Assembly (NCBI RefSeq): GCF_001418225.1
Contig: NZ_LIPT01000005.1
Coordinates: forward strand, 62,001 to 126,000
Length of the DNA: 64,000 bases
Reading direction: 5' to 3'
From: Pannonibacter indicus
GTDB lineage: Bacteria > Pseudomonadota > Alphaproteobacteria > Rhizobiales > Stappiaceae
Under the pieces are notes generated by a model, which saw only the letters and a program-made list of their open reading frames with translations, ran no database searches and had not been told where the DNA came from. The position numbers and the translations under genes are program-made. This document shows, piece after piece, positions 5,953 through 62,708 of the stretch (positions within the stretch are counted from its first letter, which is position 1; each line of letters begins with the position of its first letter).

Positions 5953-7173
5953 ATGTCCCGCATCGCTGTTGTCGTGAAAGGCTATCCGCGCCTGTCGGAA
6001 ACCTTCATCGCGCAGGAAATCCTCGGACTGGAGCGCCGGGGCATCGGCCAGCTGATCGTTGCGCTGCGCAAGCCCTACGACCCCTTCATTCACGAGCTGC
6101 ACCGGCAGATCAGCGCCGAAGTGCTGTACCTGCCGGAGTATCTGAAGGATGATCCGAAGCGTGTTGCCCGTGCCCGCCGCTGGGCGGAGCAGCAGCCCAC
6201 CTATGCCGCAGCGCGTGCCCTGTTCGAGGCGGATCTGAAGCATGAGAGCAATGCGGGACGGCACCGGCGCTGGGGCCAGGCCTGCGTCTTTGCCCATGAA
6301 CTGCCCGAAGATGTGACGTGGATCCACACCCACTATCTGCACACGCCCTGTTCGGTGGCGCGCTATGCGGCGCATCTGTCCGGGCGCGGCTGGTCCTTCT
6401 CGGCCCATGCCAAGGACATCTGGACGAGCCCGGAATGGGAGCTGCGTACAAAGCTTGATGACGCTGCCTGGGGCGTGACCTGCACCTCCGTCAATGTGAA
6501 TTATCTGCGCAGTCTTTCGGCCAACCCTGCCAAGGTGGAGCTGGTTTATCACGGGCTGGATTTCACCGGCTTTCCCGAACCCTCGGGCCGCCCCTCCACC
6601 CGTGACGGCAGCGGTGAGCCGGTGCGGCTTCTGTCCGTTGGCCGGGCCGTGGCGAAGAAGGGCTATGACGATCTTCTCACCGCCCTCGCCCGCCTGCCGG
6701 CAGGGCTCAACTGGCATTTCACCCATATCGGCGGCGGCGAGCTGTCGGACACACTCAAGGCGCAGGCGGACAAGCTCGGCCTTTCCGCCCGCGTCACCTG
6801 GATGGGCGCGCGCCCGCGTGAAGAGGTGATTGCCGCCTCTCTTGAAGCCGACCTCTTCGTGCTGCCCTCCAAGGTGACGAAAAGCGGCGACCGGGACGGC
6901 CTGCCCAACGTGCTGATGGAGGCCCAGTCCATGGGTCTGTGCTGCCTGTCCACCGCCGTTTCCGCCATTCCGGAGCTGATCGACAACGGCGAGACCGGCA
7001 TTCTGGTGCCCCCGGCAGATCCCGCAGCATTGGCAGATGCGATGGTCCGGCTGATCACCACCCCCGCCATGCGTGATGAATTCGGCCTTGCTGCCTCGCG
7101 CAAGGTGCGGGCCGAATTTGCCACAGCGCCGGGGCTTGACCGGCTGGCGGTGAAGTTCAAGGCGCTGGTCTGA
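5953..7173 (+). CDS. Family 4 glycosyltransferase
   Basis: A 406-residue group 1 (GT4) glycosyltransferase. Evidence is the N-terminal KGYPRLSETFI motif found in WcaL/colanic-acid-type enzymes, a central hinge leading to LLSVGRAVAKKGYDDLL (near 218-234), and the retaining-enzyme EX7E-type region around GDRDGLPNVLMEAQ (near 314-328) followed by PELIDNGETG. It is second in the operon, 35 bases after the MurG-like gene and 4 bases before another GT4 gene. Substrate specificity is unknown. Confidence 0.85.
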   Translation: MSRIAVVVKGYPRLSETFIAQEILGLERRGIGQLIVALRKPYDPFIHELHRQISAEVLYLPEYLKDDPKRVARARRWAEQQPTYAAARALFEADLKHESNAGRHRRWGQACVFAHELPEDVTWIHTHYLHTPCSVARYAAHLSGRGWSFSAHAKDIWTSPEWELRTKLDDAAWGVTCTSVNVNYLRSLSANPAKVELVYHGLDFTGFPEPSGRPSTRDGSGEPVRLLSVGRAVAKKGYDDLLTALARLPAGLNWHFTHIGGGELSDTLKAQADKLGLSARVTWMGARPREEVIAASLEADLFVLPSKVTKSGDRDGLPNVLMEAQSMGLCCLSTAVSAIPELIDNGETGILVPPADPAALADAMVRLITTPAMRDEFGLAASRKVRAEFATAPGLDRLAVKFKALV

Positions 7174-7177
7174 CGGG

Positions 7178-8287
7178 ATGCGCGCCGCCTTCTATGCGCC
7201 AATGAAGCCTGCCGATGATCCGGTGCCCTCCGGCGACCGGACCTTTGCGCAGCTTATCCTGCGGGCGCTGGAGACGGGCGGCCATGACACCCGCGTGGCC
7301 AGCCGGCTGAAGACATGGCGGGCCGTGCCAGAGGACCTGCCGGAGGCCCATGCGGCGGCACAGGGCGAAGCAGAGCGGATCATCGGTGACTGGGAAGCCG
7401 AAGGCTGGCGGCCGGAGGTGTGGGTGACCTATCATCTCTATCACAAGGCGCCGGACTGGATTGGGCCTGCGGTGGCGGACCATTTCGCCATTCCCTATGT
7501 GGTGCTGGAGGCAAGCCGGGCGCCCAAGCGCCAGACCGGCCCTTGGGCATATGGGTTTGCCGCTGCCGATGCGGCCCTTCAGCGGGCTGACGCGGTGGGT
7601 GCGATCCACCGGGCCGATGCGGGCTGCCTTGAGCCGGCACTGCCCCCGGATGTGCTGCATCTCTTCCCGCCGTTTCTCGATGCAACGCCCTTCCTGAAAG
7701 CCCGCCCTGCCCTCTCCGAAGAAGGCCCCGTGCGGCTGCTGGCCGTGGGGATGATGCGCCCCGGCGACAAGGAAGCCTCCTACCGGGTGCTGGCCGAGGC
7801 GCTGGTGCTGCTGATGGATCTTGACTGGGAACTGACCCTCGTTGGCGGCGGACCTTCCCGCGAGGTTCTGACGCCGCTGTTTCCCGCCACCCGTTGCCAC
7901 TTCGCCGGGGCCCTGCCGCCCGAAGCGCTGCCGCAGCAGTATCTCAGCCATGATGTGTTTGTCTGGCCCGCCATCCGCGAGGCCTTCGGCTTCGTCTTTC
8001 TGGAGGCGCAGGCAAGCGGCCTGCCGGTGGCAGGCGGCGCCACCTTCGGCGTACCGGATATCGTCGAGGATGGCCGCACCGGGCTGCTGTCTCCTGAAGG
8101 GGATTCGGCCGCCCTTGCTGCCAGCCTGCGCCGCCTGATCCTGAACCGGGGCTTGCGCAGCGCCATGGGAGGGGCTGCCCGCGCCCATATTCTATCCCGG
8201 CATGATCTCACTGCAGGCGCTGCCCGGCTCGACGCCCTTCTCCATGCGGCGCAAAAGCACTATCTGGGTGTGAGGACAAGACCTTGA
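7178..8287 (+). CDS. Family 4 glycosyltransferase
   Basis: A 369-residue GT4-type enzyme. The nucleotide-sugar half shows RLLAVGMM (near 187-194), the GGGPSREVL loop and an EX7E-type element REAFGFVFLEAQASG (near 267-281), followed by DIVEDGRTGLL. It overlaps the next gene by one base, which indicates translational coupling. The N-terminal acceptor domain is short and divergent. With its neighbours it should add successive sugars to one glycan; the particular linkage is not deducible. Confidence 0.83.
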   Translation: MRAAFYAPMKPADDPVPSGDRTFAQLILRALETGGHDTRVASRLKTWRAVPEDLPEAHAAAQGEAERIIGDWEAEGWRPEVWVTYHLYHKAPDWIGPAVADHFAIPYVVLEASRAPKRQTGPWAYGFAAADAALQRADAVGAIHRADAGCLEPALPPDVLHLFPPFLDATPFLKARPALSEEGPVRLLAVGMMRPGDKEASYRVLAEALVLLMDLDWELTLVGGGPSREVLTPLFPATRCHFAGALPPEALPQQYLSHDVFVWPAIREAFGFVFLEAQASGLPVAGGATFGVPDIVEDGRTGLLSPEGDSAALAASLRRLILNRGLRSAMGGAARAHILSRHDLTAGAARLDALLHAAQKHYLGVRTRP

Positions 8288-9459
8288 TGACCAGCACATC
8301 CACACGCCCCCTGCACGCCTTCATCCATGTTCAGCACCTCCTCGGCACTGGCCACGCGGTGCGGGCGGCCGCCATCGGGCAGGCGCTGGCCACACGCGGC
8401 GTGGACGTGACGCTGGCGGCCGGCAACATTCTGCCGCCGACGCTGGATGTCTCAGGCCTCAACGTCATCGCCCTGCCGCCGGTGCGCAGTCCCGATGCAG
8501 TGTTCAACCGGCTGGTGACACCGGAAGGCACCGACATTGACGAAGCCTGGATGGCCCGCCGAGCAGAGGCCACTATGGCGGCCTTCACGGCGCGGCCCGT
8601 CGATATCCTCCTGACCGAAACTTATCCCTTCGGCCGCCGCCAGTTCGAATTCGAGCTGGCACCGCTTCTGGCTCATGCCCGTGCCTTGCCGCAGCGCCCG
8701 CTGACCGCCAGTTCCATCCGCGACATTCTGGTGCGCAAGCAGCAGCTTTGGAAGGAAGAGTGGATGGCGGATCAGGCGCTGGCCTCCTATGACCGGGTGC
8801 TTGTTCATTCCGATCCGGATTTCGTCGAGCTTGGCGACAGCTTTCCCTTCGCGGACCGCATTGCCCATCTGGTGCGCTACACCGGCTATGTCAGCACGGA
8901 CGGGCGCCCCGAGGCACCCGGTGAGGACGGGCGGGACGAAGTGATTCTCTCCTGCGGCGGCGGCGCCGTCTCTGCTGCGCTGATCGAGGCCGCTCTTGGT
9001 GCCCGCGCCCTGTCTGCCCGCGCCAATGACGCACGCTGGCGTCTGCTGGTGGGCCACGACGTGGAGGCGGAGGCCTTCGTCTCCTATGTGGCACGCGCGC
9101 CGGACGGCATGATTGTGGAGCGGGCAAGACGCGATTTTCCGAACCTGCTCACCCGGGCAAGGCTATCCGTCAGTCAGGTGGGTTACAACACGGTGCTGGA
9201 TATCCTGCGAGCGGGTGTGCCCAGCGTGCTTGTGCCCTTTGCGCAGGTGAAGGAAACCGAGCAGACGCAGCGCGCCGAAGCGCTGGCCGGCCACCGCCGG
9301 GCTGTCATGCTGGCCGAGAAGGACCTTTCTGCCGCCACACTTGCCCGGGCGGTGGATGAAGCCTTGTCCCTGCCCCCAACCGCCACCTCCGTGCGCCTTG
9401 GCGGCGCGGAGGCCAGCGCCGACATTCTCCTCAAGGATCTGGAAGAGTTCCGCACATGA
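8287..9459 (+). CDS. MurG-like glycosyltransferase, second copy
   Basis: A 390-residue GT-B protein that resembles the first gene of this operon in plan: an N-terminal glycine-rich loop LLGTGHAVRAA (near 18-28), a central SCGGGAVS segment (near 220-227) and VGYNTVLDILRAGVPSVLVP (near 299-318) at the donor side. ATG 8287 overlaps the previous stop by one base; a TTG one codon earlier is possible. Its stop overlaps the next gene by four bases. It may be an ancient paralogue of the 4703 gene, with a different acceptor. Confidence 0.8.
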   Translation: MTSTSTRPLHAFIHVQHLLGTGHAVRAAAIGQALATRGVDVTLAAGNILPPTLDVSGLNVIALPPVRSPDAVFNRLVTPEGTDIDEAWMARRAEATMAAFTARPVDILLTETYPFGRRQFEFELAPLLAHARALPQRPLTASSIRDILVRKQQLWKEEWMADQALASYDRVLVHSDPDFVELGDSFPFADRIAHLVRYTGYVSTDGRPEAPGEDGRDEVILSCGGGAVSAALIEAALGARALSARANDARWRLLVGHDVEAEAFVSYVARAPDGMIVERARRDFPNLLTRARLSVSQVGYNTVLDILRAGVPSVLVPFAQVKETEQTQRAEALAGHRRAVMLAEKDLSAATLARAVDEALSLPPTATSVRLGGAEASADILLKDLEEFRT

Positions 9460-10214
9460 CGATTGAGCTTGCCGCGTTCAGGGACAGCCTCAGGGCGCAT
9501 CTCGACTGGTTTGCGGAGCGGGACCGGAAGGTGCGTTTCTGGTGGCGCGATGATGATGCCATTGAGCCCACGCCTGCGCTGGAGGCCATCCTTGGACTTG
9601 CCCGTGCCCACAAGGTGCAGGTGGCCCTTGCCGTCATTCCCCGAAACGCGACGCAAGCGCTGGCGCAGCGGCTGGCGGAGGATCCCCATGCGGTGGTGCT
9701 GCAGCATGGCTGGCAGCATCTCAACCACCAGCTCAAGGACCTTGGCGAAAAGGCCGCCGAATTCGGCACGCGGCGGGATGAAACGGAAGCGCTGGCGGAG
9801 TTGAAGGCCGGATGCGAGAGGCTTGGCCAGCTGTTCGGGCCGCGCTTTGTGCCTGCCATGGTGCCGCCCTGGAACCGGATTGCCCCCGGCATCATCCGCC
9901 TTCTGCCGGAGGCCGGGCTGACAGGCCTGTCCACCTTCACCTGGCACTACCACGGGCCGCATGTGGTGCAGGCGCATGTGGACATCATCAAGTGGAAGAA
10001 GGACCGGCGCTTCATCGGCTGGAAGAGTGCGAGGAAGCGGCTGGACCTGCAGTTTCTGCGCCGCCGCAACACGGACAGCGAACCGCTGGGTATTCTCACT
10101 CACCATCTCGTTCACGACGAAGGGTGCCAGGCGTTTCTCGAAGACTTTCTCACCATCGCCGCGCACCATCCCGGTGCAGACTGGCCGGACGTGCCTGGGC
10201 TCTTCAGCGAGTAA
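9456..10214 (+). CDS. Polysaccharide deacetylase-like protein
   Basis: A 252-residue protein of the NodB-like (carbohydrate esterase 4) superfamily. It has the metal/catalytic Asp cluster WWRDDDA at residues 29-35, HGWQHLNHQ near 84-92 carrying the metal His residues, and VPPWNR near 135-140, a motif seen in putative glycan deacetylases that sit with glycosyltransferases. There is no signal peptide, so it would act in the cytoplasm on a lipid-linked or nucleotide-linked intermediate. ATG overlaps the preceding stop (ATGA), so it is translationally coupled as the last gene of the operon. Confidence 0.8.
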   Translation: MTIELAAFRDSLRAHLDWFAERDRKVRFWWRDDDAIEPTPALEAILGLARAHKVQVALAVIPRNATQALAQRLAEDPHAVVLQHGWQHLNHQLKDLGEKAAEFGTRRDETEALAELKAGCERLGQLFGPRFVPAMVPPWNRIAPGIIRLLPEAGLTGLSTFTWHYHGPHVVQAHVDIIKWKKDRRFIGWKSARKRLDLQFLRRRNTDSEPLGILTHHLVHDEGCQAFLEDFLTIAAHHPGADWPDVPGLFSE

Positions 10215-10250
10215 TACCAGCACTCAACGAGCTTGATTTACCGGATGCTG

Positions 10251-10316
10251 GTCAAGTCCATGCGGCGCATGAGCAATTTCAGGGCCTGATGCGTCAGCAT
10301 CGAAATCCTTGGCATG
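10251..10316 (-). repeat. Dispersed structured intergenic repeat, copy 2
   Basis: Read on the minus strand, this matches the family core: CCAAGGATTTCGATGCTGAC, then GCATCAGGCCCTGAAATTGC, then CATGCGCCGCATGGACTTGA. GATGC/GCATC can pair. A second imperfect hairpin (CCAGCA/TGCTGG) follows at 10216-10251. It fills the gap between the convergent deacetylase and zur genes. Confidence 0.7.
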
Positions 10317-10324
10317 CGAAACTG

Positions 10325-10771
10325 TCACTGCGCGGCGGCAGCTTCGCGGCAGGTGCAGCAGAGGCCGCGCAGCTCGATCACCGTCTTGTGCAGGGCAAAG
10401 CCCTCGGCGTTGGCCCAGCCGCTGAGCCGCTTGGAGATCTCTTCATCGGCAAATTCGCTCACCGATCCGCAGGTTTCGCAGATGGCGAAAGCCGTGCTGG
10501 CGTGGTCCTCGCAGGAGGGATGGCGGCAGGCCACGAACGCATTGAGGCTTTCCAGCCGGTGCACCATGCCCATTTCAACAAGCTTTTCCAGCGCCCGGTA
10601 GACCTGCAGCGGCGCCCGGAAGCCCTCCACCCGCAGCTTGTCGAGGATGGTATAGGCCGTCAGTGGTCCTTGCGCCTCTTCCAAAGCGCCAAACACGAGG
10701 TTCTGGTTGCGTGTCAGGCCCGAGCGGTCGTGGTAATGGTGGTGATGATGATGGTCGTGGTGGTCACTCAT
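10325..10771 (-). CDS. zur: Zinc uptake regulator Zur (Fur family)
   Basis: A 148-residue Fur-family repressor. The winged-helix segment includes PLTAYTILDKLR and APLQVYRALEKLVEMGMVHR, and the C-terminal dimerisation part has the structural-zinc cysteine pairs CETC and CCTC. It sits at the end of zur-znuB-znuC and near a candidate operator, so repression of zinc uptake genes when zinc is sufficient is the expected role. Unusually, the N-terminus is a His run (MSDHHDHHHHHHYHD). The start is the ATG at 10771, with AGAAGGA seven bases upstream. Confidence 0.93.
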   Translation of the reverse strand: MSDHHDHHHHHHYHDRSGLTRNQNLVFGALEEAQGPLTAYTILDKLRVEGFRAPLQVYRALEKLVEMGMVHRLESLNAFVACRHPSCEDHASTAFAICETCGSVSEFADEEISKRLSGWANAEGFALHKTVIELRGLCCTCREAAAAQ

Positions 10772-10797
10772 CGTCGTTTCCTTCTCTCCGCCGCCGG

Positions 10798-52158: not shown

Positions 52159-52348
52159 AGACTTCTCCTGAAAATCGACAGGCAGCCCCCTCCCCCTTGG
52201 GCCTGCCTGTTTGCGTCAAGCATTGGCCACTGCACTCTCTCCTAGGGCAAATCAGCGGCAGAACAGGCAAATACGGACAGCTCACCCATTTCCGAGCTTT
52301 TCTTGCTAGACTTTGCGCAGTGATTCTCCGAAGTCAGCGGATGGGCGA

Positions 52349-54214
52349 ATGAGCTTCAAGCCGGCAAATGCTGCCACCACGACACTCGACATAATGCGCA
52401 AGGCCGTGGCCCTGCAGCAGGCCGGTGAAGTCGAGAAAGCGCAGCGGCTTTACAAAACCGTCCTTAAGAAGAACCCTTCCTCTCCGGATGCCAACCACCT
52501 TCTGGGGGTCTGCTACCGGCAGCTGGGCTTCCCCAAACGGGCAGTGGAGTTCATCCGCAAGGCAATTTCCCTCGCACCGGACCGCGCCCCCTATCATGCC
52601 AATCTGGCACGCGCGCTCTCTGACCTTGATGAAGATAACCATGCCGATGTGCTGGCCGCAGCCGAACGGGCCGTGGCACTGGATCCCAGGCTTGCCGAAG
52701 CGCAAAGCCTGCGTGCCGTGGCCATGACCAAACTGGGCCGGGAGACTGAGGCAGAGGAAATCTTCAAGCAGATTGTCGCGGATCATCCAGGCTACGGAGA
52801 TGCCTACCGCAACTATGGCGTTCTGTTGCGGGATCAGAAGAAGTTCCATCAGGCCGTTGAGTTCTTCGACAAGGCCATCCAGATCGATCCCAGCAATTCC
52901 GACATATGGGTCCAGCGGGCCCGCTCAAGACTTGAAGCAGAGCAGTATGACAAGTCAGGCGAGGAACTGAGGCTTGCTCTTCAACTCTTCCCCGGGAATG
53001 ATGATCTCCAGCATGAAATGGCACGCCTGCTGTTCCGGATTGGCGAAGCATCGGATGCCCTGCCCTTTGCAGAAGCTGCCATGGCAGCGAACCCGCAGGA
53101 TGTTGCAAGGCATGTCACCCTAGGTGTCATTCTGCAAAGCATGAGCCGGTCCACGGACGCGATAAAGGTCCTGCGGAAGGGTATCGAACTGGCGAATGGC
53201 GACCTTCCGGTTGCGGAGTGGAATCTCGCCCTAGCCTATCTGGGAGCGGGCAACATTGCAGAGGGCTGGAAGCACTATGGTGCCCGCTTCAAGGCGGAAA
53301 TCACGTCCTGCCTCAACCGCAAATTCCGGAAGCCCCAATGGGATGGGTCTGATCTGACTGGCAAGACGATCATGATCTGGAATGATCAGGGGGTTGGCGA
53401 CTGCCTCCGCTCCGGCACGCTGATTGCCGACATCATGGAGATGGCAGACAAGGTGATCATCGAGGTGCCGAAGAAACTGGTCGCACCTTTCGAGCATAGT
53501 TTCCCGGATGCCCTGACACGCACACCGACGTTTGAATCCATCACCCTGATGGCCACCACCGATGATTATGACTTCCAGATCTCCTCGGCAGATCTTCCGC
53601 GCTATATCCGCAATGATCTGGAGTCTTTCAAGAAAACACGGCATCCCGTGTTCAAGATCAACACCCGGCGCGCCCGTGAACTTTACCGCCGGATTCCTGA
53701 CGCCGACAAGAAACCGGTTGTCGGTGTCTCATGGCGCTCCAGCAAGCTGGCTCCTGCCCGTGCGAAAAATTACCTTTCGGTGATGGATTTTGCACCGGTT
53801 GTCGAGACGAAAGGTATCGTCTTCGTCAATCTGCAATATTCCTGCATCGACCGGGAGGTTACTTACCTTCAGGAAGGGCGCGGCGCAAACCTGATTCACT
53901 TTGCCGACATTGACCAGATGAACAACATTGAGGATGCGGCTGCACTTGCCTCGTGCTGTGATCTTGTCATAACGGCAAACACAAGCGTTTCAGACATTGC
54001 CGGCTGCTACGGCATGCCCTGCTGGACCTTCGGCGACGACATCAGTCATTACATGCTCGGGCAGGAGCAGACACCCTGGTTCCCCAGGACAACCTACACG
54101 AAACTCAAGCCCGGCCAGCCTGTCGTTGAGCTGATTCCGGGGCTTGTCGAGCGGCTGGAAAGCTGGAAATCGTCGTTCTCTCCCGAAGAGCGCATGAAGC
54201 GCCTGCAGCTGTGA
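52349..54214 (+). CDS. TPR-glycosyltransferase, FlmG-like
   Basis: A 621-residue cytoplasmic protein. About residues 14-320 are TPR repeats (AVALQQAGEVEKAQRLYKTV, then NHLLGVCYRQLGFPKRAVEF, and others); the C-terminal half (about 335-600) is a GT-B-like transferase domain ending in DLVITANTSVSDIAGCYGMP and TPWFPRTTY, the pattern of TPR-linked glycosyltransferases such as Caulobacter FlmG, which adds pseudaminic acid to flagellin. It is followed after six bases by neuA, so a role in transferring the CMP-sugar to protein is inferred. Donor specificity is not deducible. ATG 52349 is used. Confidence 0.8.
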   Translation: MSFKPANAATTTLDIMRKAVALQQAGEVEKAQRLYKTVLKKNPSSPDANHLLGVCYRQLGFPKRAVEFIRKAISLAPDRAPYHANLARALSDLDEDNHADVLAAAERAVALDPRLAEAQSLRAVAMTKLGRETEAEEIFKQIVADHPGYGDAYRNYGVLLRDQKKFHQAVEFFDKAIQIDPSNSDIWVQRARSRLEAEQYDKSGEELRLALQLFPGNDDLQHEMARLLFRIGEASDALPFAEAAMAANPQDVARHVTLGVILQSMSRSTDAIKVLRKGIELANGDLPVAEWNLALAYLGAGNIAEGWKHYGARFKAEITSCLNRKFRKPQWDGSDLTGKTIMIWNDQGVGDCLRSGTLIADIMEMADKVIIEVPKKLVAPFEHSFPDALTRTPTFESITLMATTDDYDFQISSADLPRYIRNDLESFKKTRHPVFKINTRRARELYRRIPDADKKPVVGVSWRSSKLAPARAKNYLSVMDFAPVVETKGIVFVNLQYSCIDREVTYLQEGRGANLIHFADIDQMNNIEDAAALASCCDLVITANTSVSDIAGCYGMPCWTFGDDISHYMLGQEQTPWFPRTTYTKLKPGQPVVELIPGLVERLESWKSSFSPEERMKRLQL

Positions 54215-54220
54215 GGCATC

Positions 54221-54910
54221 ATGGCAGCGCCCACGCAAGTCACCGCCATCATTCCTGCAAGGGCCGGGTCAAAGGGATTGCCGGGCAAGAACATCCGGCC
54301 GCTGGCGGGCAAGCCGCTGTACCGGCATAGTGTCGATGCTGCGCTCGCCGCTGGAATCGGCCGTGTGATCATCAGCACCGATATCGGTGAGATCTTCACT
54401 CATGACCTGCCCCCGCAGGTGGAATGCATCCGGCGCCCGCTGGAACTGGCAACGGACAGCACGACGATGGCGGAGGTGCTGCGCGACCTCTTGCCCAGCG
54501 CAGGCGTCACTTCAGGCCTTGCCGTTCTGTTGCAGCCCACGTCGCCGCTGCGCAAGGCCGAGACCGTGCGCAAGGGCATCGGTCTGTTCCGGCAAGGCGA
54601 CGCCAGCATGGTCATGAGCGTATCTCCGGCAGATTCCGCCGTGCTGAAGTGGGGTTTTGCGGAGGGAGACCGGTTCGTGCCGCTGGTTTCTCCAGATTTC
54701 TGTTTTGCGAACCGGCAGGACTTGCCAGCCCTGATCAGGCCCAACGGCGTTCTCTATGTTTTTGATGCGGCGCAGTTCATCGCAGATGGCAACTTTTCTG
54801 CTGCATCGATCCGCGTGCTGCCGGTTAGCGCGAACGAGGCTCAGGACATTGATACGGCTGAAGACTTTCAGCGCTGCGCAGATCTGATGGCGAAGGGGGA
54901 ACTGACGTGA
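54221..54910 (+). CDS. neuA: CMP-nonulosonate cytidylyltransferase
   Basis: A 229-residue NeuA-type enzyme. The CTP loop is IIPARAGSKGLPGKNIRPL (near 10-28), followed by DSTTMAEVL, LLQPTSPLR and QDIDTAEDF near the C-terminus. It activates sialic acid or a relative as CMP-sugar. It overlaps neuB by four bases (GTGA) and follows the TPR-glycosyltransferase. A sugar-specific call (Neu5Ac, legionaminate or pseudaminate) cannot be made from this sequence alone. Confidence 0.92.
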   Translation: MAAPTQVTAIIPARAGSKGLPGKNIRPLAGKPLYRHSVDAALAAGIGRVIISTDIGEIFTHDLPPQVECIRRPLELATDSTTMAEVLRDLLPSAGVTSGLAVLLQPTSPLRKAETVRKGIGLFRQGDASMVMSVSPADSAVLKWGFAEGDRFVPLVSPDFCFANRQDLPALIRPNGVLYVFDAAQFIADGNFSAASIRVLPVSANEAQDIDTAEDFQRCADLMAKGELT

Positions 54911-55956
54911 AAATCGCTCACAGAGACATTGGTCCCGCGCATCCCCCGCTGGTGATTGCAGAAATCGGCATCAATCATGGCGGCAACCTTGATGTTGCAA
55001 AGGCCATGGTGCGCGCTGCAGCCCAGAGCGGCTGCGAGATGATCAAGCACCAGACGCATATCGTCGAGGACGAGATGACGGATGAGGCCAGGGAGATCTT
55101 CCCGCCCAATGCCGATGTCTCGATCTTCGAGGTGATGCGGCGCTGCGCCCTGCCGCTGGAGGCGGAGAAAGAGCTGAAGGCCTATACCGAAAGCCTCGGC
55201 CTCATCTACATCTCCACGCCCTTTTCCCGCGCGGCCGCCGATTTCCTCAACTCCATCGATGTGCCCGGCTTCAAGATCGGCAGCGGTGAATGCGATCACC
55301 TGCCGCTGATCCGGCACATTGCCGGTTTCGGCAAGCCGGTGATCATGAGCACAGGTATGCAGACACTGGAGAGCATCCGCCCTTCGGTCGAGATCCTTGA
55401 CAAGGCCGGCATTGGCTATGCCCTGCTGGAATGCACGAACCTCTATCCCTCCCCACCGGAGATCGTTTCCCTCAGGGGGGTGACGGATCTGAAGGCGGCA
55501 TTTCCCAATGCGGTTGTCGGCTTCTCCGATCACAGCATCGGCCCGGAGATGGCGCTGGCCTCCGTGGCACTCGGCGCCTGTATTCTGGAGCGGCATTTCA
55601 CCGACACACGCTACCGCAAGGGGCCGGATATTTCCTGTTCCATGGACCCTTCTGAACTGCGGTTTCTGATCGAGCGCTCGCGGGAGATCCACATGGCGCT
55701 TCACAACGAAAAGAAGCGCACGGCGCCGGAGGAAGATGTCTACCGCTTCGCCCGCGGATCCGTTGTGGCGGACCGGGATCTGCCGGAAGGCCATGTGATC
55801 ACCGAAGCCGATATCTGGGCGCGGCGGCCGGGCAACGGCGAGATCCCCGTCTCGCGGTTTGACGAAATCATCGGGCGGAAGCTGACGCTTGCGGTCAGGC
55901 GCAATCAGCAACTGCGCTGGAGCGATCTGGCTCCTGCTCCGGAGACCCGCCAATGA
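54907..55956 (+). CDS. neuB: Nonulosonic acid synthase NeuB
   Basis: A 349-residue NeuB-type synthase. The PEP-binding barrel shows IAEIGINHGGN (near 17-27), FKIGSGECDHLPL (near 120-132), STGMQTLESI, LECTNLYPSP and GFSDHSIGPEMA. A C-terminal SAF (antifreeze-like) domain (about 290-340) is present, as in sialic and legionaminic synthases. It condenses PEP with ManNAc or a 6-deoxy-diacetamido relative. The start is GTG 54907, which overlaps the neuA stop. Confidence 0.93.
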   Translation: MKIAHRDIGPAHPPLVIAEIGINHGGNLDVAKAMVRAAAQSGCEMIKHQTHIVEDEMTDEAREIFPPNADVSIFEVMRRCALPLEAEKELKAYTESLGLIYISTPFSRAAADFLNSIDVPGFKIGSGECDHLPLIRHIAGFGKPVIMSTGMQTLESIRPSVEILDKAGIGYALLECTNLYPSPPEIVSLRGVTDLKAAFPNAVVGFSDHSIGPEMALASVALGACILERHFTDTRYRKGPDISCSMDPSELRFLIERSREIHMALHNEKKRTAPEEDVYRFARGSVVADRDLPEGHVITEADIWARRPGNGEIPVSRFDEIIGRKLTLAVRRNQQLRWSDLAPAPETRQ

Positions 55957-57074
55957 CCGCCCGGCGGCTCCTGTTTCTGACCGGTACCCGGGCCGATTTC
56001 GGCAAGCTGGAACCGCTTGCCATCGCAGCAAGAGATGCCGGCCACGAGGTGACTTTTTTCGTCACCGGCATGCATATGCTGGAAAAATACGGCCTCACCC
56101 GCAACGAGGTGCAGCGGCTGCCGGGTGTGGTGAAGCATGAGTTCATCAACCAGCGGCTGGGCGACCCGCAGGACATCATCCTGTCCAAGACGATCCTCGG
56201 TCTTTCGGACTGGGTTCATGAGAACAGGCCGGATCTGACCATCGTGCATGGCGACCGGATCGAAGCCCTTGCCGGTGCGCTGGTCTGCGCGACCAATTAC
56301 ATCCGCTGTGCCCATATTGAAGGCGGTGAGGTGTCAGGCACGATCGATGAGGTCTACCGCCATTGCAACACCAAGCTCTGTACCTACCACTTTGTCAGCT
56401 CTGAAGCCGCAAGAGCACGGGTCCTGACATTGGGGGAAGAGCCAGGTACGGTCTTCAACATCGGTTCTCCGGAGCTGGACTTCCATGGCGGACCATCCGG
56501 CGTCACGCTCGATGAAGTCTGCAAGCATTACGCAATTCCCTTCAAGGATTACGGGATTGCAGTGTTTCATCCGGTAACATCGGAGCGGGACACGATCGCT
56601 GCACAGGCGCAAAGCCTGTTCTCTGCTTTGTCGGCAAGCGGACGGAACTTTATTGTCATCTCCCCGAACAACGATCCCGGCTCAGAGGATATCTTTGCCG
56701 AGATCGAGCGGCTGGATCCCGGGCGCTTCCGGCACCTGCCCAACATGCGTTTTGCCTACTTCTCTGAGCTGATGAAGAATGCGGCTGCCATCATCGGCAA
56801 CTCCAGTGCCGGTGTGCGTGAAGCCCCGTTCCTAGGCATTCCCAGCCTCAATCTCGGCACCCGGCAGCTCAACAGATCCGTGGCGCCAACCATCACGGAA
56901 GCCTCAGCCTTCGACCGCGAGGCCATCGCGGATTTCCTGACCAACAGATGGGGCCAGCGCTTCGCCTCCGACCGCAGCTTCGGGCAGGGCAACTCGGCGG
57001 CCCGTTTTGTCGAGATCCTGAATGGTCCCGGCTTCTGGGATGCCCCGCTGCAGAAGCACTTCTACAGCGCGTGA
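55953..57074 (+). CDS. neuC: Hydrolysing UDP-HexNAc 2-epimerase NeuC
   Basis: A 373-residue GT-B-like epimerase of the hydrolysing type. It shows LTGTRADFGKLEPL (near 9-22), VHGDRIEAL (near 98-106), HIEGGEVSGTIDE (near 119-131), NSSAGVREAPFLGIP and LGTRQ. It releases a free 2-epimerised sugar (ManNAc from UDP-GlcNAc, or the diacetamido equivalent from UDP-diNAcBac as LegG does). It overlaps neuB by four bases (ATGA). No 4,6-dehydratase/aminotransferase pair of the legionaminate route is in the window, which leans to a ManNAc/Neu5Ac route. Confidence 0.92.
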   Translation: MTARRLLFLTGTRADFGKLEPLAIAARDAGHEVTFFVTGMHMLEKYGLTRNEVQRLPGVVKHEFINQRLGDPQDIILSKTILGLSDWVHENRPDLTIVHGDRIEALAGALVCATNYIRCAHIEGGEVSGTIDEVYRHCNTKLCTYHFVSSEAARARVLTLGEEPGTVFNIGSPELDFHGGPSGVTLDEVCKHYAIPFKDYGIAVFHPVTSERDTIAAQAQSLFSALSASGRNFIVISPNNDPGSEDIFAEIERLDPGRFRHLPNMRFAYFSELMKNAAAIIGNSSAGVREAPFLGIPSLNLGTRQLNRSVAPTITEASAFDREAIADFLTNRWGQRFASDRSFGQGNSAARFVEILNGPGFWDAPLQKHFYSA

Positions 57075-57105: not shown

Positions 57106-57825
57106 TCAAGACGTAATGCGTTGCGCCACCGCGTGATACCGGGAAGCGTGCGCCGAGACGGTCAACACCGTCCGGCGGACCAGCACCAGCTCCTTCAATT
57201 GGAACTGCCCCTCAAGCAGCCGCGAAATTTTGTCTGGATCGAAATAGCTCTGGACCGTGCCAAGCTCATGGTCTTTGGAGACGGTCAACTCTCCGGTAAA
57301 TCCCTGATCCTGCAACTCACTGTCTTCCGGGCTGATCAGATCAAGATAGAACAGGGCGCCGGGCTTCAATACCCTTGCAATTTCCCCTATCGCCACTCTG
57401 GCATGCTCGAAGGGCATGGAATCAAGAACAGCATGGGAGACAGCCGCATCAAAAAAGCCATCCTCGAAGGGCAAACTGCGCCCGTCGCCGCAGATCAGAC
57501 GCCCTTCTGCATCCCCGCAGCCGACAGCCGAAAGCCAGCTACGGCCAGCCGCAATGGCCTTGTCAGACAGATCAATGCCCCGGCCATCCAGCCCGAGGTC
57601 CAGCGCAAGGCGGACATGACGGCCGAGGCCGCAGCCGAAGTCCAGAATGCGGGAAGCGGGGCCAAAGCCCTCCCTGTACTGCACCGTGTCCAGACCGGTA
57701 CGCTTGGCCACATGACGGGCGAAGAAGCGGATCACTTCCTCATTGGGATAGAAAAGAAAGTTGCCGCCACGGTCATAGGCGGCGTTCCACTCGCTGCGTC
57801 TCGTGTCCTTTTGCATAGGTCTCAT
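57106..57825 (-). CDS. Class I SAM-dependent methyltransferase
   Basis: A 239-residue methyltransferase with motif I ILDFGCGLGRHVRLAL (near 61-76), GRGIDLSDKAI (motif II) and FDAAVSHAVLDSMPF (near 125). It is fully coupled to the CMAH-like gene upstream: ATG at 57825 overlaps that gene's stop by four bases. A function on the same nonulosonic acid, such as O-methylation, is inferred from context only. It converges with neuC (31 bases between the stops). Confidence 0.85.
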   Translation of the reverse strand: MRPMQKDTRRSEWNAAYDRGGNFLFYPNEEVIRFFARHVAKRTGLDTVQYREGFGPASRILDFGCGLGRHVRLALDLGLDGRGIDLSDKAIAAGRSWLSAVGCGDAEGRLICGDGRSLPFEDGFFDAAVSHAVLDSMPFEHARVAIGEIARVLKPGALFYLDLISPEDSELQDQGFTGELTVSKDHELGTVQSYFDPDKISRLLEGQFQLKELVLVRRTVLTVSAHASRYHAVAQRITS

Positions 57826-59519
57826 ACCACGAATTCATGTTGAATGTTGATACAGGCGTCGCACGCGAGCGAAGCGCGCTTGACCCTGTCGTTCACATAG
57901 ACATTCGAAAAATGATACCAGAAGTCTGAGTGGTAGATATTTGGCTGGCGCTTCACCCGGCACTGGAAACCGATCGACAGATCTTCCCAGGGCAGCCCAA
58001 GCCGGATGACCCGGATGAACTCGTTACGGCGGATACGCAGCGACAGAAACCGGTCCAGGCTGAGAAGATATGCTTCATAGTCAGCGCGGTTGAGCGGCGT
58101 AACGCTTCCCGGGCCTTTTTCGTCGAAACGGCAAAAAAAGGCCTCTTCCCCTTCCTCAAACGCATCATCCGTCAGGCGGACAAGAAGATTCAGGGGCTTG
58201 GCATAGCCTGAGCCGAGGAAATAAGTGGCAACTTCAGCCGGATCGAGCGCAGCCCCGCCCGGAGGTGGTGCGGCAAGATAGGCCTCCATTGGTGCCTGAT
58301 CCAGAACGGTCCCACTTCGGGGCAGGCTTGTCCTGAAATCCCGTCCCTCGAACAGAAAACGCGTATCCACGGTCACATCCAGCAGCCGGACGCCCAGAGC
58401 CTTACAGATGTTGCTATAGTCAGACACCGCGTTTTTCCGGTTATGCTCCTTGATGTAGCTGTCCCGCGGCGCGGCTTCCGAGAAGAACCCCGCGTAAGGG
58501 AGAAAGGCAGCCGGAGCCGTCTTCTCAAGGATCTGAGACGCCAGATATCTGACCGTGTTGCGATTGCGGATGATGATCTGCTGGCGTTCGCGCTCATCAT
58601 AATTGTCGAAGCAGAGGGGAAAGCCGCTCGCCCCGCTGGCAAAGGATGAGGCAAAGACGGTCAGCCCCTCAGGGAAGCGGTAAAAGTCGATGAAGTTGGC
58701 ATCCACCGCCAGCAGGGCACTGAAACCGCCAATTTCCACCAGTAAGCCGCTGTCATCACGGAAGTCTCCGCTTTTCAGAACCGAAAGGGAGATTTCCGCC
58801 GCATCGTCGCGCAAGGCGGCATCAAAAGGGGCAGCCAGAATGCTGACAAAACCCAGATCCTCCAGATAGCGGACGGTCGACCCGCTGCCGAAGGCCGGTG
58901 TCAGGACAGGCATGTCCTTGCGCACGCGTTCCAGAGTTTCCCGGTGAAGATGGTCCGGGTGATTGTGAGAGATATACAGAAAATCACAGGCGTTGATCTT
59001 CTCAAATGCATCGGCAGGCGATGGTAATGCCAGCCACCAGCCATTGCAGAAAGCAGGCCCCAGCAGCCAGGGATCCGTCGCAAAGCTCAAGCCCTCTGTA
59101 CGGATGATGAGGCAGGCATGGTTGAGAAACTCAATCTCAACCGGCAGCGGCTTTGAATATCCTGCCAGCGAGCGCGACATGGACTTCAGGGCAAAACGCA
59201 CCGGTGCTGCCGGCACAGGATCATCCACAGCCACCACCAGAGGCGCCTTGGTGCATTCCACATTTTTGTAGCGCCCGGTCGCAGCATCCAGTTCCCAGCC
59301 GTGCATGGGGCAGGAGACACGGCCGTTGTTGAAGATCAGGCGCCCGCCATTATGGTCGCAGATCCGGTCATAAACACGAATCTCACCGCCGCCGCGAAAG
59401 ATGATCCAGTCGTCCGCATGGCTGATACCTTCCGGCACAGAGCGCGGGTCAATCTCTTGCGGCTGCTCGCGCATGGCAAAGGCCGCGGGCACGATAGAAA
59501 ACCTGTCCCAAACCGCCAT
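57822..59519 (-). CDS. CMP-Neu5Ac hydroxylase (CMAH)-like Rieske/MBL protein
   Basis: A 565-residue protein with the domain order of vertebrate CMP-N-acetylneuraminate hydroxylase. Rieske ligands are C54-x-H56 and C70-x2-H73 (ICDHNGG, CPMHGWEL). An MBL-fold domain follows with HNHPDH at 185-190. Segments of CMAH recur in order: HACxxxR, DPWLLGPAFCNGWW (149-162), SHNHPDHL, FASGASGFPLCF (293-304), PYAGFFSE (341-348), YIKEHNRKN (355-363), and near the C-terminus IGFQCRVKRQPNIYH. CMAH converts CMP-Neu5Ac to CMP-Neu5Gc with electrons from cytochrome b5. Beside neuA/B/C, this supports hydroxylation of a CMP-nonulosonate. No cytochrome b5 gene is in the window. Confidence 0.88.
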   Translation of the reverse strand: MAVWDRFSIVPAAFAMREQPQEIDPRSVPEGISHADDWIIFRGGGEIRVYDRICDHNGGRLIFNNGRVSCPMHGWELDAATGRYKNVECTKAPLVVAVDDPVPAAPVRFALKSMSRSLAGYSKPLPVEIEFLNHACLIIRTEGLSFATDPWLLGPAFCNGWWLALPSPADAFEKINACDFLYISHNHPDHLHRETLERVRKDMPVLTPAFGSGSTVRYLEDLGFVSILAAPFDAALRDDAAEISLSVLKSGDFRDDSGLLVEIGGFSALLAVDANFIDFYRFPEGLTVFASSFASGASGFPLCFDNYDERERQQIIIRNRNTVRYLASQILEKTAPAAFLPYAGFFSEAAPRDSYIKEHNRKNAVSDYSNICKALGVRLLDVTVDTRFLFEGRDFRTSLPRSGTVLDQAPMEAYLAAPPPGGAALDPAEVATYFLGSGYAKPLNLLVRLTDDAFEEGEEAFFCRFDEKGPGSVTPLNRADYEAYLLSLDRFLSLRIRRNEFIRVIRLGLPWEDLSIGFQCRVKRQPNIYHSDFWYHFSNVYVNDRVKRASLACDACINIQHEFVV

Positions 59520-59739: not shown

Positions 59740-60435
59740 ATGACAAAGGGCACGGACAGCGTTCAGGGCCTGTCGCCCGGCAAGGTCTGGGACTACGAGA
59801 ACGGCTTCTACTGGTTCTCCGATCCAAGCCGCCTCAACAAGATGCTGGCTCATTACGAGCTCTACCGGAGGATTACAGGGCTTCCAGGAGATGTGCTGGA
59901 ACTCGGCGTCTTCAAGGGCCTGTCCCTGATCCGCTTCGCCCAGTTCCGCGCCTTGCTCGAAACCGAGGCTTCACGCCGCATCATCGGCTTCGACGCCTTC
60001 GGAGACTTTCCGGCGGAGGGTCTGTCTGATCCATCGGATCACAAATTCATCGAGAAATTCGAGACGGAGGCTGGCAAGGGGCTGTCAAAGGCCGAAATGG
60101 CCGCCATTCTGGAGGCAAAGCGGATCGGCAATGTGGATTTGGTGGAGGGCAACGTGTTCCAGACCCTGCCGGACTACCTGGCCCGCAATCCGCAGCTTCG
60201 CATATCCCTGCTGCATCTCGACATGGATGTGGGCGAACCGACGCGCTTTGCGCTGGAACATCTGTTTGAGCGTGTCGTGCCGGGCGGGCTGGTCGTCGTT
60301 GATGACTATAATGCTGTCGCGGGAGCAACCAATGCAGTGGATGACTTCCTGAGAGCAGCGGGAGGCGCGTCTGCGGGTCTCAGCTTGCAGAAACTGCCAA
60401 ACTATCGCGTACCCGCCTTCTTCGTCCGGCCCTGA
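59740..60435 (+). CDS. TylF/MycF-type sugar O-methyltransferase
   Basis: A 231-residue SAM methyltransferase of the TylF family, which includes macrocin and other sugar O-methyltransferases. It shows DVLELGVFKGLSLIRFA (near 51-67), GFDAFGDFP (near 89-97), NVFQTLPDYL, LHLDMDVGEPTRFALEHL (near 165-182) and GGLVVVDDY (near 190). The metal-binding Asp residues of TylF/MycF lie in the last two regions. With the CMAH-like protein it makes O-methylation of the nonulosonic acid or glycan likely. Start ATG 59740, with a strong AGGGAGAAGG. Confidence 0.85.
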   Translation: MTKGTDSVQGLSPGKVWDYENGFYWFSDPSRLNKMLAHYELYRRITGLPGDVLELGVFKGLSLIRFAQFRALLETEASRRIIGFDAFGDFPAEGLSDPSDHKFIEKFETEAGKGLSKAEMAAILEAKRIGNVDLVEGNVFQTLPDYLARNPQLRISLLHLDMDVGEPTRFALEHLFERVVPGGLVVVDDYNAVAGATNAVDDFLRAAGGASAGLSLQKLPNYRVPAFFVRP

Positions 60436-60449
60436 CCGGGCCGGACGAA
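60421..60449 (+). terminator. Terminator hairpin with a stop codon in its loop
   Basis: A perfect 12-base stem TTCGTCCGGCCC / GGGCCGGACGAA has the loop TGACC, whose TGA is the stop codon of the TylF-like gene. It is followed by CTTTCAG. Termination directly on the end of the coding region is likely. Confidence 0.7.
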
Positions 60450-60467
60450 CTTTCAGACCGGAGTATC

Positions 60468-60521
60468 ATACCAAGGCTTCGATGCTGGCTTGAAATGCTC
60501 AGCATCCGCACGGGCTTGAGA
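60468..60521 (+). repeat. Dispersed structured intergenic repeat, copy 6
   Basis: ATACCAAGGCTTCGATGCTG, then CTTGAAATGCT and CAGCATC, then CGCACGGGCTTGAG. GATGCTG/CAGCATC form a 7-base stem. It is a shortened variant of the family core. It ends two bases before the fpr stop. Confidence 0.7.
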
Positions 60522-60522
60522 C

Positions 60523-61335
60523 TCAGCCCACAAACGCCCGTTCCACGACGAATTCGCCGGGCTTGTTGTTGGCGCCTTCGTTGAGGCCGGCCTTTTCGAG
60601 CAGGGCCTTGGTGTCGCGGAGCATTTCCATGGAGCCGCAGATCATGCCGCGGTCGATGGCCGGGTCCAGCGGCGGAACACCGAGATCGGTGAAGAGCTTG
60701 CCGCTCTCGATCAGATCGGTGATGCGGCCCTGGCGCGGGAAGTCCTCGCGGGTGACGGAGGTGTAATGCACCAGCTTTTCGCTGGCGAGTTCACCGATCA
60801 GCGGATCGTTCTTGGTTGCCTCGACCAATTCCTCGCCGTAGCGCAGTTCCGCAACTTCACGGCAGGTGTGGGTCAGGATGACCTGATCGAACTTCTCATA
60901 GGTTTCCGGATCACGGATCAGGCTGGCAAAGGGGGCAATGCCGGTGCCAGTGGAGAACATGTAGACGCGCTTGCCTGGCGTCAGAGCATCATTGACGAGC
61001 GTTCCGGTCGGCTTCTTCTTCAGAAGCAGCGCGTCGCCCGGCTGGATTTTCTGCAGATGCTGGGTCAGCGGGCCATCCGGCACCTTGATGGAGAAAAACT
61101 CCAGTTCCTCATCCCAGGACGGGCTGGCGATGGAATAGGCGCGGTACAGCGGCTTGCCGTCGATCAGCAGGCCGATCATCACGAATTCACCGGAGCGGAA
61201 ACGGAATGCGGCAGGCCGCGTGGTGCGGAACTTGAAGAGGCGGTCGGTGTAATGCTTGACCTCCGTCACTTCCTGCACGAAGGCACTCGGGCCTGCGACA
61301 GTTTCCAGGTCGGCGGGTTTGGCAAGAACGTTCAT
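60523..61335 (-). CDS. fpr: Ferredoxin-NADP+ reductase
   Basis: A 270-residue FAD/NADPH reductase. The FAD motif is RAYSIASP (near 83-90), the NADP-binding loop FSTGTGIAPF (near 125-134), CGSMEM and the C-terminal EFVVERAFVG of alphaproteobacterial Fpr proteins. It transfers electrons between NADPH and ferredoxin or flavodoxin. It lies beside the CMAH/NeuABC island, separated from the TylF-like gene by a repeat, in convergent orientation. Confidence 0.93.
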   Translation of the reverse strand: MNVLAKPADLETVAGPSAFVQEVTEVKHYTDRLFKFRTTRPAAFRFRSGEFVMIGLLIDGKPLYRAYSIASPSWDEELEFFSIKVPDGPLTQHLQKIQPGDALLLKKKPTGTLVNDALTPGKRVYMFSTGTGIAPFASLIRDPETYEKFDQVILTHTCREVAELRYGEELVEATKNDPLIGELASEKLVHYTSVTREDFPRQGRITDLIESGKLFTDLGVPPLDPAIDRGMICGSMEMLRDTKALLEKAGLNEGANNKPGEFVVERAFVG

Positions 61336-61661
61336 GGCGGTCCAGTCATGTTACGCCGCGACACTCCTGCCTGCGGCCAGTCCATCGGAACGGCCCGCCA
61401 GCACGGCATGAGAGAGTCGCCTCATCACCGGCAAGACACGGGCTATTGTGGCGTATCACCTACCACTTTCTTCGCCTTGATATGAAGCAACAACCGCCCA
61501 GGAAAACGCCTTCCGCATAAAAAAAAATCTAATCGCCCCCCTTCGATGCAGGAATGGTTTCTGCAGCAGCGGATTTCTGCAATTTTCATTGACAGCTGAA
61601 CCAATCATGCCGCTCCATACAGGAAAATACATAATCTTCCAGAGCAAGGGTGCCGCGTTCC
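61336..61661. other. Divergent gap, fpr / GlxA-type regulator
   Basis: 326 bases between two divergent starts. An A-run (AAAAAAAAAT near 61518) and an A/T-rich stretch lie at about 61485-61645, suitable for promoters. No coding region is credible. Confidence 0.4.
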
Positions 61662-62708
61662 ATGTCCAATTCCGGTCCGCAGCCGCACAGGTCAGATCCC
61701 GAAGGGCAGACCATTGCCCTCGTCCTCTTTGACCGGTTTTCGATGATTGCCTTCACCTCCGTCGTTGAACCGCTCCGCCTTGCCAACCGGGTGCTGGGGC
61801 GGGAGTTTTACCGCTGGCGCACTTATTCCCTGGATGGCGCCCCGGTGACCGCCTCGAATGGCTGTGAGATCAGCGTGAACCACAGCATCCGCGAACTTGA
61901 GGATACCGATATCACCCTGCTTTGCAGCGGCATCGATGTGGAGCGGCTGCCGCTGGACAAGGAACTGGGCATACGGCTGCGGAAACTGAATTCACGCGGA
62001 CGCACCTTTGGCGCCATCTGCACCGGCGCCTACCTGCTGGCCCGCTATGGCCTTCTGGAAGGCCGGCGCTGCACACTGCACTGGGAGAACCTGCGCTCGT
62101 TCCGTGAGGAGTTTCCAGGCGTGGATGTGTCATCGGACATCTTCGCCATCGACCGCAACTGCATCACCTGCGCCGGCGGCATGGCATCGCTCGACATGAT
62201 GCTGCGGCTGATCGCCATCCGCCATGGCGCGGCACTGGCACATGAAGTGGCGGAAGTGGCCCTGTATCAGAACATGCGCTCGGGCGAGAGCGCGCAGCGC
62301 CATGACATCGAGGCCCGCACGGGTATCTCCAATGCCAAGATCCTGGAAGCCATCCGCATCATGGACATGCATATCGAGGATCCCCTCTCCTGCCAGCAAC
62401 TGGCGATGACGGTGAACCTGTCACCCCGCCAGCTGGAGCGGCTGTTCCGGCGCCACTTCAACTGTACGCCGGGGCAATACTATCTGAAACTGCGCCTCGA
62501 GACGGCCCGTGATCTTCTGCGGCGCACCTCACGTGCCGTGCTGGATGTGGCCATTGCCTGCGGCTTTGCATCCACCTCGCATTTCACCAAATGCTACCGG
62601 GAACGCTTCCTCGTCACCCCGACAGAAGAGCGCAACACCTATCAAGGCGGCAACCGGAGTTCACGCAGCGCGCGCATGCAGCTCCGGCAGGCTGCTGTGC
62701 CGGTCTGA
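61662..62708 (+). CDS. GlxA-family transcriptional regulator
   Basis: A 348-residue protein with an N-terminal DJ-1/PfpI-like domain (about 15-190; FGAICTGAYLLARYGLLEGRRCTLHWEN near 118-145) and a C-terminal AraC-type double helix-turn-helix (about 225-320; LSPRQLERLFRRHF and DVAIACGFASTSHFTKCYRERF). Family members such as GbdR and CdhR control choline, betaine or carnitine use; no such genes are in the window, so the target is unknown. ATG 61662 is taken; an upstream GTG adds four residues. Confidence 0.9.
   Translation: MSNSGPQPHRSDPEGQTIALVLFDRFSMIAFTSVVEPLRLANRVLGREFYRWRTYSLDGAPVTASNGCEISVNHSIRELEDTDITLLCSGIDVERLPLDKELGIRLRKLNSRGRTFGAICTGAYLLARYGLLEGRRCTLHWENLRSFREEFPGVDVSSDIFAIDRNCITCAGGMASLDMMLRLIAIRHGAALAHEVAEVALYQNMRSGESAQRHDIEARTGISNAKILEAIRIMDMHIEDPLSCQQLAMTVNLSPRQLERLFRRHFNCTPGQYYLKLRLETARDLLRRTSRAVLDVAIACGFASTSHFTKCYRERFLVTPTEERNTYQGGNRSSRSARMQLRQAAVPV

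Follow-up and report, generated by a model that had tools for sequence, protein, structure and literature searches.

A stretch of 64,000 nucleotides of the Pannonibacter indicus genome (assembly GCF_001418225.1, contig NZ_LIPT01000005.1, positions 62,001 to 126,000), referred to here as the window, contains a gene for a bacterial homologue of CMAH, the animal hydroxylase of CMP-N-acetylneuraminic acid (CMP-Neu5Ac). The gene is a single intact open reading frame (ORF) of 565 codons, 59519..57822, with an ATG start and a TGA stop. An earlier note, made from the sequence, had proposed such a homologue here; it gave correct coordinates, and the gene is on the minus strand. The gene and the parts of its product are, in window positions:

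57822..59519, minus: CMAH-like gene, 565 amino acids (aa), consisting of a Rieske domain, a metallo-beta-lactamase (MBL) fold and a C-terminal module
59244..59417, minus: Rieske [2Fe-2S] domain, residues 35-92 (Pfam PF00355, E 1e-10)
58350..59141, minus: MBL-fold domain, about residues 127-390 (Pfam, alignment and model)
57885..58322, minus: C-terminal module, about residues 400-545, with GLPWEDLSIGFQ..R.PN.Y..FW.HF (alignment)

The N-terminal Rieske domain and the MBL domain are thus found in that order in one chain, and the Rieske match and the Lactamase_B_3 match (residues 128-215, E 2e-7) are both over the Pfam cut-offs. The residues expected of each domain are intact. The Rieske ligands, C54-x-H56 and C70-x2-H73, are unchanged across nine aligned bacterial rows, and the HxHxDH motif of the MBL domain is present as HNHPDH at residues 185-190, with H185, H187, D189, H190, D256 and D273 invariant in all nine. 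Every motif quoted in the earlier note is present in the protein, including DPWLLGPAFCNGWW (149-162), FASGASGFPLCF (293-304), PYAGFFSE (341-348), YIKEHNRKN (355-363) and IGFQCRVKRQPNIYH (516-530). The C-terminal module belongs to no Pfam family, its one match being at chance level (E 0.39), and NCBIfam gave no match to the CMAH-like protein at E 0.001.

Kinship with animal CMAH

Comparison with the animal enzyme was made using a provisional mouse CMAH sequence, not a database record, which counts against any reading built upon it. By blastp, the window protein is 28 % identical to this provisional sequence over 556 columns (195-204 bits, E 9e-63); the match spans window residues 37-538 and is collinear over about 500 residues, while 200 shuffled versions of the window protein gave 400 scores, the highest being 26.6 bits. 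The window protein has 565 aa, compared with 578 aa in cat CMAH and 576 aa in mouse CMAH. The mouse row was partly checked against 14 cat CMAH residues listed in PMC11350856, and six of the 14 agree at the offset expected from the lengths, with between none and three agreeing at eight other offsets. With L023, a real sequence from a myxobacterial metagenome-assembled genome (MAG), the window protein shares 33 % identity over about 526 columns (238-243 bits, blastp), and L023 is itself 40 % identical to the provisional mouse row over 548 columns. L023 was caught by an eight-residue pattern partly shaped by the mouse row; the rest of its sequence is independent of it.

Common to animal CMAH and the window protein are the Rieske-then-MBL order, the C-x-H/C-x2-H and HxHxDH residues, and the motifs GPAFxxGWW, FAxGASGFP, YIKExNxKN and GFQxRxxRxPxIYH. 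The window protein differs in being only 28 % identical, in belonging to a sister clade and in the linkage of its gene to that of a methyltransferase. The full-length homology claimed by the earlier note is borne out by the same domain order and by bit scores far over those of the shuffled proteins. Homology to CMAH, with a Rieske-MBL-C-terminal architecture, is close to certain.

A tree of 25 rows was made with IQ-TREE (LG+C20 PMSF), with three rows of the type of NamH, the UDP-N-acetylmuramic acid (UDP-MurNAc) hydroxylase of Mycobacteriales, as outgroup. The window protein and seven other Proteobacteria rows form one group (support 100/100), the provisional mouse row and three myxobacterial rows (L023, L038, L039) form another (100/99), and together these make a 12-row CMAH clade (98/95). 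A long branch just outside this clade carries the protein of a further myxobacterial genome, G869; the nine MBL-only rows lie beyond it, and the NamH-type rows are a separate, long-branched group. A composition test flagged eight of the 25 rows, including the mouse row, L021 and L038, the latter two being in the clade. The window protein is therefore a bacterial member of the CMAH clade, grouping apart from NamH and from MBL-only proteins, and it is not the nearest bacterial relative of animal CMAH, since the tree pairs mouse with the myxobacterial rows. Phylogeny had been named in the earlier note as a check, and it does not place the window protein with the MBL-only proteins. The suggestion that this gene bears on the origin of CMAH stands in so far as the protein is in the CMAH clade, but the myxobacterial sequences, which group with mouse, are the more telling. 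These three have the same architecture as the window protein and NeuC in the genome, and are 34-40 % identical to the provisional mouse CMAH and 31-33 % to the window protein. The tree also turns the origin of animal CMAH into a testable question.

The G869 protein (L040; L065 8184-10154), of 656 aa, has Rieske and MBL domains and an additional tail at its C-terminus; its genome has NeuC. Also seen were proteins with open frames of some 450-505 aa whose similarity to CMAH is confined to the MBL part (L007-L009, L011-L014, L041-L043 and L045); no Rieske domain was found in L014, the sole one scanned.

Bacterial CMAH-like genes were known before; what is new is the pathway context, the methyltransferase link and the myxobacterial placement. 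A 2018 study by Peri et al. reportedly identified two green algae and a small number of prokaryotes with CMAH homologues. Bacterial CMAH-like sequences have been reported without activity tests (PMC6724515, and Peri et al., 2018, cited in PMC6288428), those of Helicobacter being mentioned in PMC6288428, and reviews state that no bacterium has been shown to make N-glycolylneuraminic acid (Neu5Gc). Among the titles and opening lines of abstracts listed in a literature search in which most subscription papers were missing, none reported bacterial CMAH activity or de novo Neu5Gc synthesis in a bacterium.

The neu genes and the distribution of CMAH-like genes

Upstream of the CMAH-like gene in the window are three genes of nonulosonic acid synthesis, confirming the neuA, neuB and neuC neighbours (54221-57074, plus strand) noticed earlier; they fit a CMP-Neu5Ac pathway.

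54221..54910, plus: neuA, CMP-nonulosonate synthetase (best solved relative CMP-Neu5Ac synthetase 1eyr, 112.5 bits)
54907..55956, plus: neuB (matches SiaC, an N-acetylneuraminate synthase, best among solved structures, with 376.6 bits over 340 residues)
55953..57074, plus: neuC, UDP-N-acetylglucosamine (UDP-GlcNAc) 2-epimerase (TIGR03568, 337 bits, cut-off 235.9)

The SiaC structure matched by NeuB is presumably that of the Neisseria meningitidis enzyme. The best solved relative of NeuC is a bifunctional UDP-GlcNAc 2-epimerase/N-acetylmannosamine (ManNAc) kinase (4zht, 164 bits), which we take to be human GNE. NeuB scores 139 bits with pseudaminic acid synthase, and is only 31 % identical to the NeuB of a legionaminic-type cluster in Lacimicrobium. 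No LegB is over its cut-off in the window genome (best 128.9 of 475 bits). There are 11 DegT-family matches in this genome, one strong (256 bits) and the next at 50.9 bits; the strong one is an RfbH-like aminotransferase (257 of 423 bits) that fails the LegC (135 of 420) and PseC (183 of 423.5) models, which were applied to it and not to the ten weak ones. Legionaminic and pseudaminic acid are therefore disfavoured as the sugar in the window genome, there being no LegB over its cut-off, one strong aminotransferase match that fails LegC and PseC, and a NeuB that matches the Neu5Ac synthase. Since neuA, neuB and neuC match Neu5Ac enzymes best, the genes for CMP-Neu5Ac are, judged by sequence alone, in the same genome as the CMAH-like gene, and CMP-Neu5Ac is the likely substrate of the window protein, with CMP-N-glycolylneuraminate (CMP-Neu5Gc) its likely product.

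The RfbH-like aminotransferase gene is in a region of the window genome (L092 6900-12227, plus, G000:C2) with gmd, fcl-like and wzm/wzt-like genes; gmd is over its cut-off, and fcl, wzm and wzt are best matches below theirs. This is probably an O-antigen GDP-deoxysugar cluster.

CMAH-like genes are sparsely distributed. Among named species, Pannonibacter carbonis has the closest relative (L016, 64 % identity), and another in the genus (G300, 65 %) has the same length and start as that of P. carbonis; both identities hold over nearly the full length. The gene is present in two of 87 genomes of the family, including the window's own. Among 297 genomes of the order and 398 of the phylum, full-length matches were confined to this genome, with partial matches in three and five others, respectively. 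A scan of 84,980 species, one genome per species, gave 56 pattern matches and at least eight relatives: in P. carbonis, a Parvibaculaceae MAG, a Rhodobiaceae MAG, Lacimicrobium alkaliphilum, two Bradyrhizobium, an uncultured alphaproteobacterium and a Myxococcales MAG. These eight loci are a lower bound, because the scan used just two peptide patterns; the mouse row helped to shape the patterns, and L038 and L039, which came to light with L023 as query, fit neither. With L023 as query, 183 genomes of its order contained two relatives (G763 and G800, 51-54 %), a distant one (G869, 32 %) and five more genomes with partial matches to the MBL part. No relative of the window protein was found among viral contigs in two scans or among phages, and plasmids gave partial matches only, in 11 records with the window protein as query and in two with L023.

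NeuC is over its cut-off in 10 of the 12 genomes carrying a CMAH-like gene, the misses being a 1.5-Mb MAG and Bradyrhizobium sp. 138; the 10 of 12 include G869, which is outside the 12-row clade, and without it the count is nine of 11. For comparison, 42 of 297 genomes of the window's order and 25 of 183 of the myxobacterial one have NeuC over the cut-off. Within the latter, these are all four carriers and 21 of 179 others (Fisher p 2.8e-4), and the 10 of 12 carriers compare with 41 of 296 in the window's order (p 3.5e-7); these values ignore relatedness, and the 12 carriers are spread over more groups than the genomes used as background. The CMAH-like gene is physically linked to a neu gene in four of the 12: the window, Lacimicrobium, AH-326-B08 and G763. 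In G763, neuC overlaps neuA by 4 bp, and neuA overlaps an animal-type CMAH-like gene by another 4 bp (L064, G763:C91:19001-38000, 6876-10797, plus). The opposite strand of that region has genes for a TylF methyltransferase and a PhyH oxygenase some 3-4 kb upstream of neuC-neuA-CMAH.

Several findings weigh against CMP-Neu5Ac as the substrate, or against a specific tie between the gene and its synthesis. The lead of the epimerase/kinase over a GDP/UDP-diacetylbacillosamine epimerase as relative of NeuC is small (164 versus 144 bits), NeuB at 348.6 bits is below the NCBIfam cut-off of 399.65, NeuA is over no NCBIfam cut-off, and the list of solved relatives for NeuB held no legionaminate synthase. 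In Bradyrhizobium sp. 138 there is no match to NeuB, and nothing passes the NeuC cut-off. In eight of the 12 carriers, P. carbonis included, the stretch covered around the CMAH-like gene showed no neu gene; neighbours were read from a coarse tiling of ORFs and from blastp searches with proteins of the window, which can miss genes (one stretch, L018, is of 6.9 kb). As to specificity, NeuC is over its cut-off in three of the five myxobacterial genomes with MBL-part matches only (G752, G760 and G793), and some MBL-part-only proteins may therefore serve sugar-nucleotide pathways.

The proposed reaction and its alternatives

On balance, the window protein is probably a CMAH-family oxygenase that hydroxylates CMP-Neu5Ac in this organism. 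In such a pathway NeuC would convert UDP-GlcNAc to ManNAc, NeuB would make Neu5Ac and NeuA would then make CMP-Neu5Ac. Animal CMAH takes its electrons from cytochrome b5; in the bacterium they would pass from a ferredoxin or a reductase to the Rieske cluster and on to the metal site of the MBL domain, probably a di-iron site, where oxygen would be activated and the methyl of the N-acetyl group hydroxylated to give CMP-Neu5Gc.

The first alternative is that the clade consists of CMP-nonulosonate hydroxylases with differing sugars, the sugar being Neu5Ac here and the product further modified, for example O-methylated. The Lacimicrobium cluster (L019) contains LegB (494.8 of 475 bits), NeuC, NeuB, a nucleotidyltransferase with a CBS domain, which we take to be PtmE-like, and neuA. 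LegB is also over the cut-off of 475 bits in Bradyrhizobium MOS003 (498.2 bits), and in AH-326-B08 a PseI-type NeuB (462.9 of 340 bits) is near the CMAH-like gene, with one small ORF between. In the Parvibaculaceae MAG the neu genes are away from the CMAH-like gene, with a similar nucleotidyltransferase and no LegB over the cut-off. As some relatives in the sister clade, to which the window protein belongs, adjoin legionaminic- or pseudaminic-type genes, not every member need act on Neu5Ac. A modified product would fit the methyltransferase gene that adjoins the CMAH-like gene in four of 12 loci, in opposite orders in two genera. Against this alternative, the window genome has no LegB over the cut-off, its one strong aminotransferase match fails LegC and PseC, and its NeuB scores 376 bits with a Neu5Ac synthase; this alternative is possible but improbable beside hydroxylation of CMP-Neu5Ac. 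Just upstream of the Lacimicrobium CMAH-like gene (L019 8859-9971, plus) is a 370-aa frame with a weak match to PF07388 (E 7e-4, below the cut-off), and this alpha-2,8-polysialyltransferase-like protein is a possible transferase for a modified sugar.

Hydroxylation of another N-acetyl sugar nucleotide, such as UDP-MurNAc, the substrate of NamH, is considerably less likely. NamH chemistry, like that of CMAH, is the conversion of N-acetyl to N-glycolyl. According to PMC6481270, CMAH is a distant homologue of prokaryotic N-glycolylmuramic acid genes. The three NamH-type references used here are Rhodococcus and Nocardia proteins from plasmid records. We assume these, including that of R. ruber (L036), to be NamH; for L036 the Pfam match to SCP2_Rv3818 supports this. 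By hhalign, their domains are related to those of the window protein when aligned singly in swapped order (probability 94.7 % for Rieske, 99.1 % for MBL), and two of the 12 carriers have no NeuC over the cut-off. However, the domain order is reversed in the NamH type, being MBL (2-76), SCP2_Rv3818 (331-450) and Rieske (466-507) in R. ruber by Pfam, with an additional SCP2-like domain; the NamH-type rows are a separate group in the tree, and the carriers are rich in NeuC compared with the background. On the reversed order, identity of the window protein with NamH was rejected. Nor did hhalign support a kinship between the C-terminal module and the SCP2-like domain of NamH (probability 0.1 %).

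The fold of the MBL domain points to oxygenases by some measures. An AlphaFold2 model from the nine rows (predicted local distance difference test 80.7, predicted template modelling score 0.82) had as its best Foldseek matches for this domain CmlA (1.3e-8) and FrsH (1.5e-8), both MBL-fold di-iron oxygenases, and CmlA and FrsH were again first by sequence with a nine-row profile (E 4e-9 to 7e-8). They are alignable with the window protein by sequence over the MBL part only, and are not known to have a Rieske domain themselves. Two observations weaken this indication of a di-iron oxygenase. With VIA-align, hydrolases (6brm, Z 18.9) are level with or over CmlA (17.7) and FrsH (17.4), so fold alone cannot identify an oxygenase. 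In addition, the position of the residue that we take to be the site-1 glutamate ligand of CmlA aligns with K249, in a gapped stretch; K249 is within an LKSGDFR stretch and is invariant in the eight Proteobacteria rows. A third alternative, a UlaG-like hydrolase as the MBL domain with a Rieske domain joined to it, or a degenerate protein that has no oxygenase activity, would fit the MBL hydrolases at Z 17-19, level with oxygenases, and the lack of an obvious third site-1 ligand, but is the least likely alternative, given the Rieske and HxHxDH residues invariant in nine of nine rows, the 64-65 % identity to Pannonibacter relatives and the tree, which keeps the nine MBL-only rows outside the CMAH clade. 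Identity with UlaG-like or MBL-only hydrolases was rejected on the presence of the Rieske domain and on tree position.

In PMC4819959, CMAH is described as likely to be an oxygenase, with no CMAH structure reported as of 2016, and no CMAH-named entry was among the Protein Data Bank sequence matches. A bacterial enzyme could help toward a first structure.

The CMAH-methyltransferase pair and neighbouring genes

The genes flanking the CMAH-like gene and the neu genes in the window are:

57106..57825, minus: class I S-adenosylmethionine (SAM) methyltransferase, 239 aa (Pfam)
59740..60435, plus: TylF-type methyltransferase (Pfam)
60523..61335, minus: ferredoxin-NADP reductase-like ORF (identified by eye from sequence)
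52313..54214, plus: tetratricopeptide repeat (TPR) protein, 633 aa, with a long C-terminal part (Pfam TPR)

The SAM methyltransferase gene starts within the end of the CMAH-like gene, the start and the stop sharing 4 bp (ATGA). A relative of this methyltransferase adjoins the CMAH-like gene in P. carbonis and in the two Bradyrhizobium, which also have a 4-bp overlap, in reversed gene order compared with the window. More speculatively, this methyltransferase would methylate the hydroxylated sugar.

The window has the CMAH-methyltransferase pair between neuC and the TylF-type gene, in the opposite orientation. P. carbonis has a TPR-neuA-neuB-neuC-TylF block with 65 bp from neuC to TylF, and its pair sits elsewhere. 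Window positions 52382-57020 and 59781-61999 align to this block and the intervening part does not, while parts of the DNA between 57020 and 59781 align to L016. No tRNA or repeat convincingly marks the edges of a cassette. The TylF-type methyltransferase, which adjoins neuC in P. carbonis and has a relative in the G763 region (L064, 2214-2993), is perhaps a nonulosonate O-methyltransferase. The ferredoxin-NADP reductase-like gene is a possible electron donor, though not a specific one, as P. carbonis has an ORF of like sequence in the same place with the CMAH-like gene elsewhere.

Upstream, the TPR gene, neuA, neuB and neuC follow in one direction. The Caulobacter protein FlmG, of 596 residues, has TPR repeats and a GT-B-like C-terminal domain and puts pseudaminic acid on flagellins, according to PMC7591256. 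The window TPR protein resembles it in its TPR N-terminus, its length of about 600 aa, its alphaproteobacterial origin and its place beside neu genes, whereas the FlmG system uses pseudaminic acid and the window neu genes point to Neu5Ac. No Pfam family matches the C-terminal part of the window TPR protein at E 1, and a single-sequence model of this part was unusable (predicted local distance difference test 34.7). By analogy, the TPR protein is proposed to be a FlmG-like flagellin glycosyltransferase; if it is of this type, it would, again more speculatively, put the sugar on flagellin, the acceptor suggested by the same analogy. The window genome has five flagellin matches, all on other contigs.

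A wider proposal, offered tentatively and rather doubtful as a whole, is that this bacterium makes Neu5Gc or O-methylated Neu5Gc de novo and displays it on flagellin, that the CMAH-methyltransferase pair is a mobile cassette landing beside nonulosonate genes, and that animal CMAH came from a myxobacteria-like gene. If true, this would be the first bacterial Neu5Gc, and Neu5Gc chemistry would be bacterial in origin. With the window locus and the myxobacterial neuC-neuA-CMAH operon, bacterial Neu5Gc becomes directly testable, and Pannonibacter includes a named strain, P. carbonis Q4.6.

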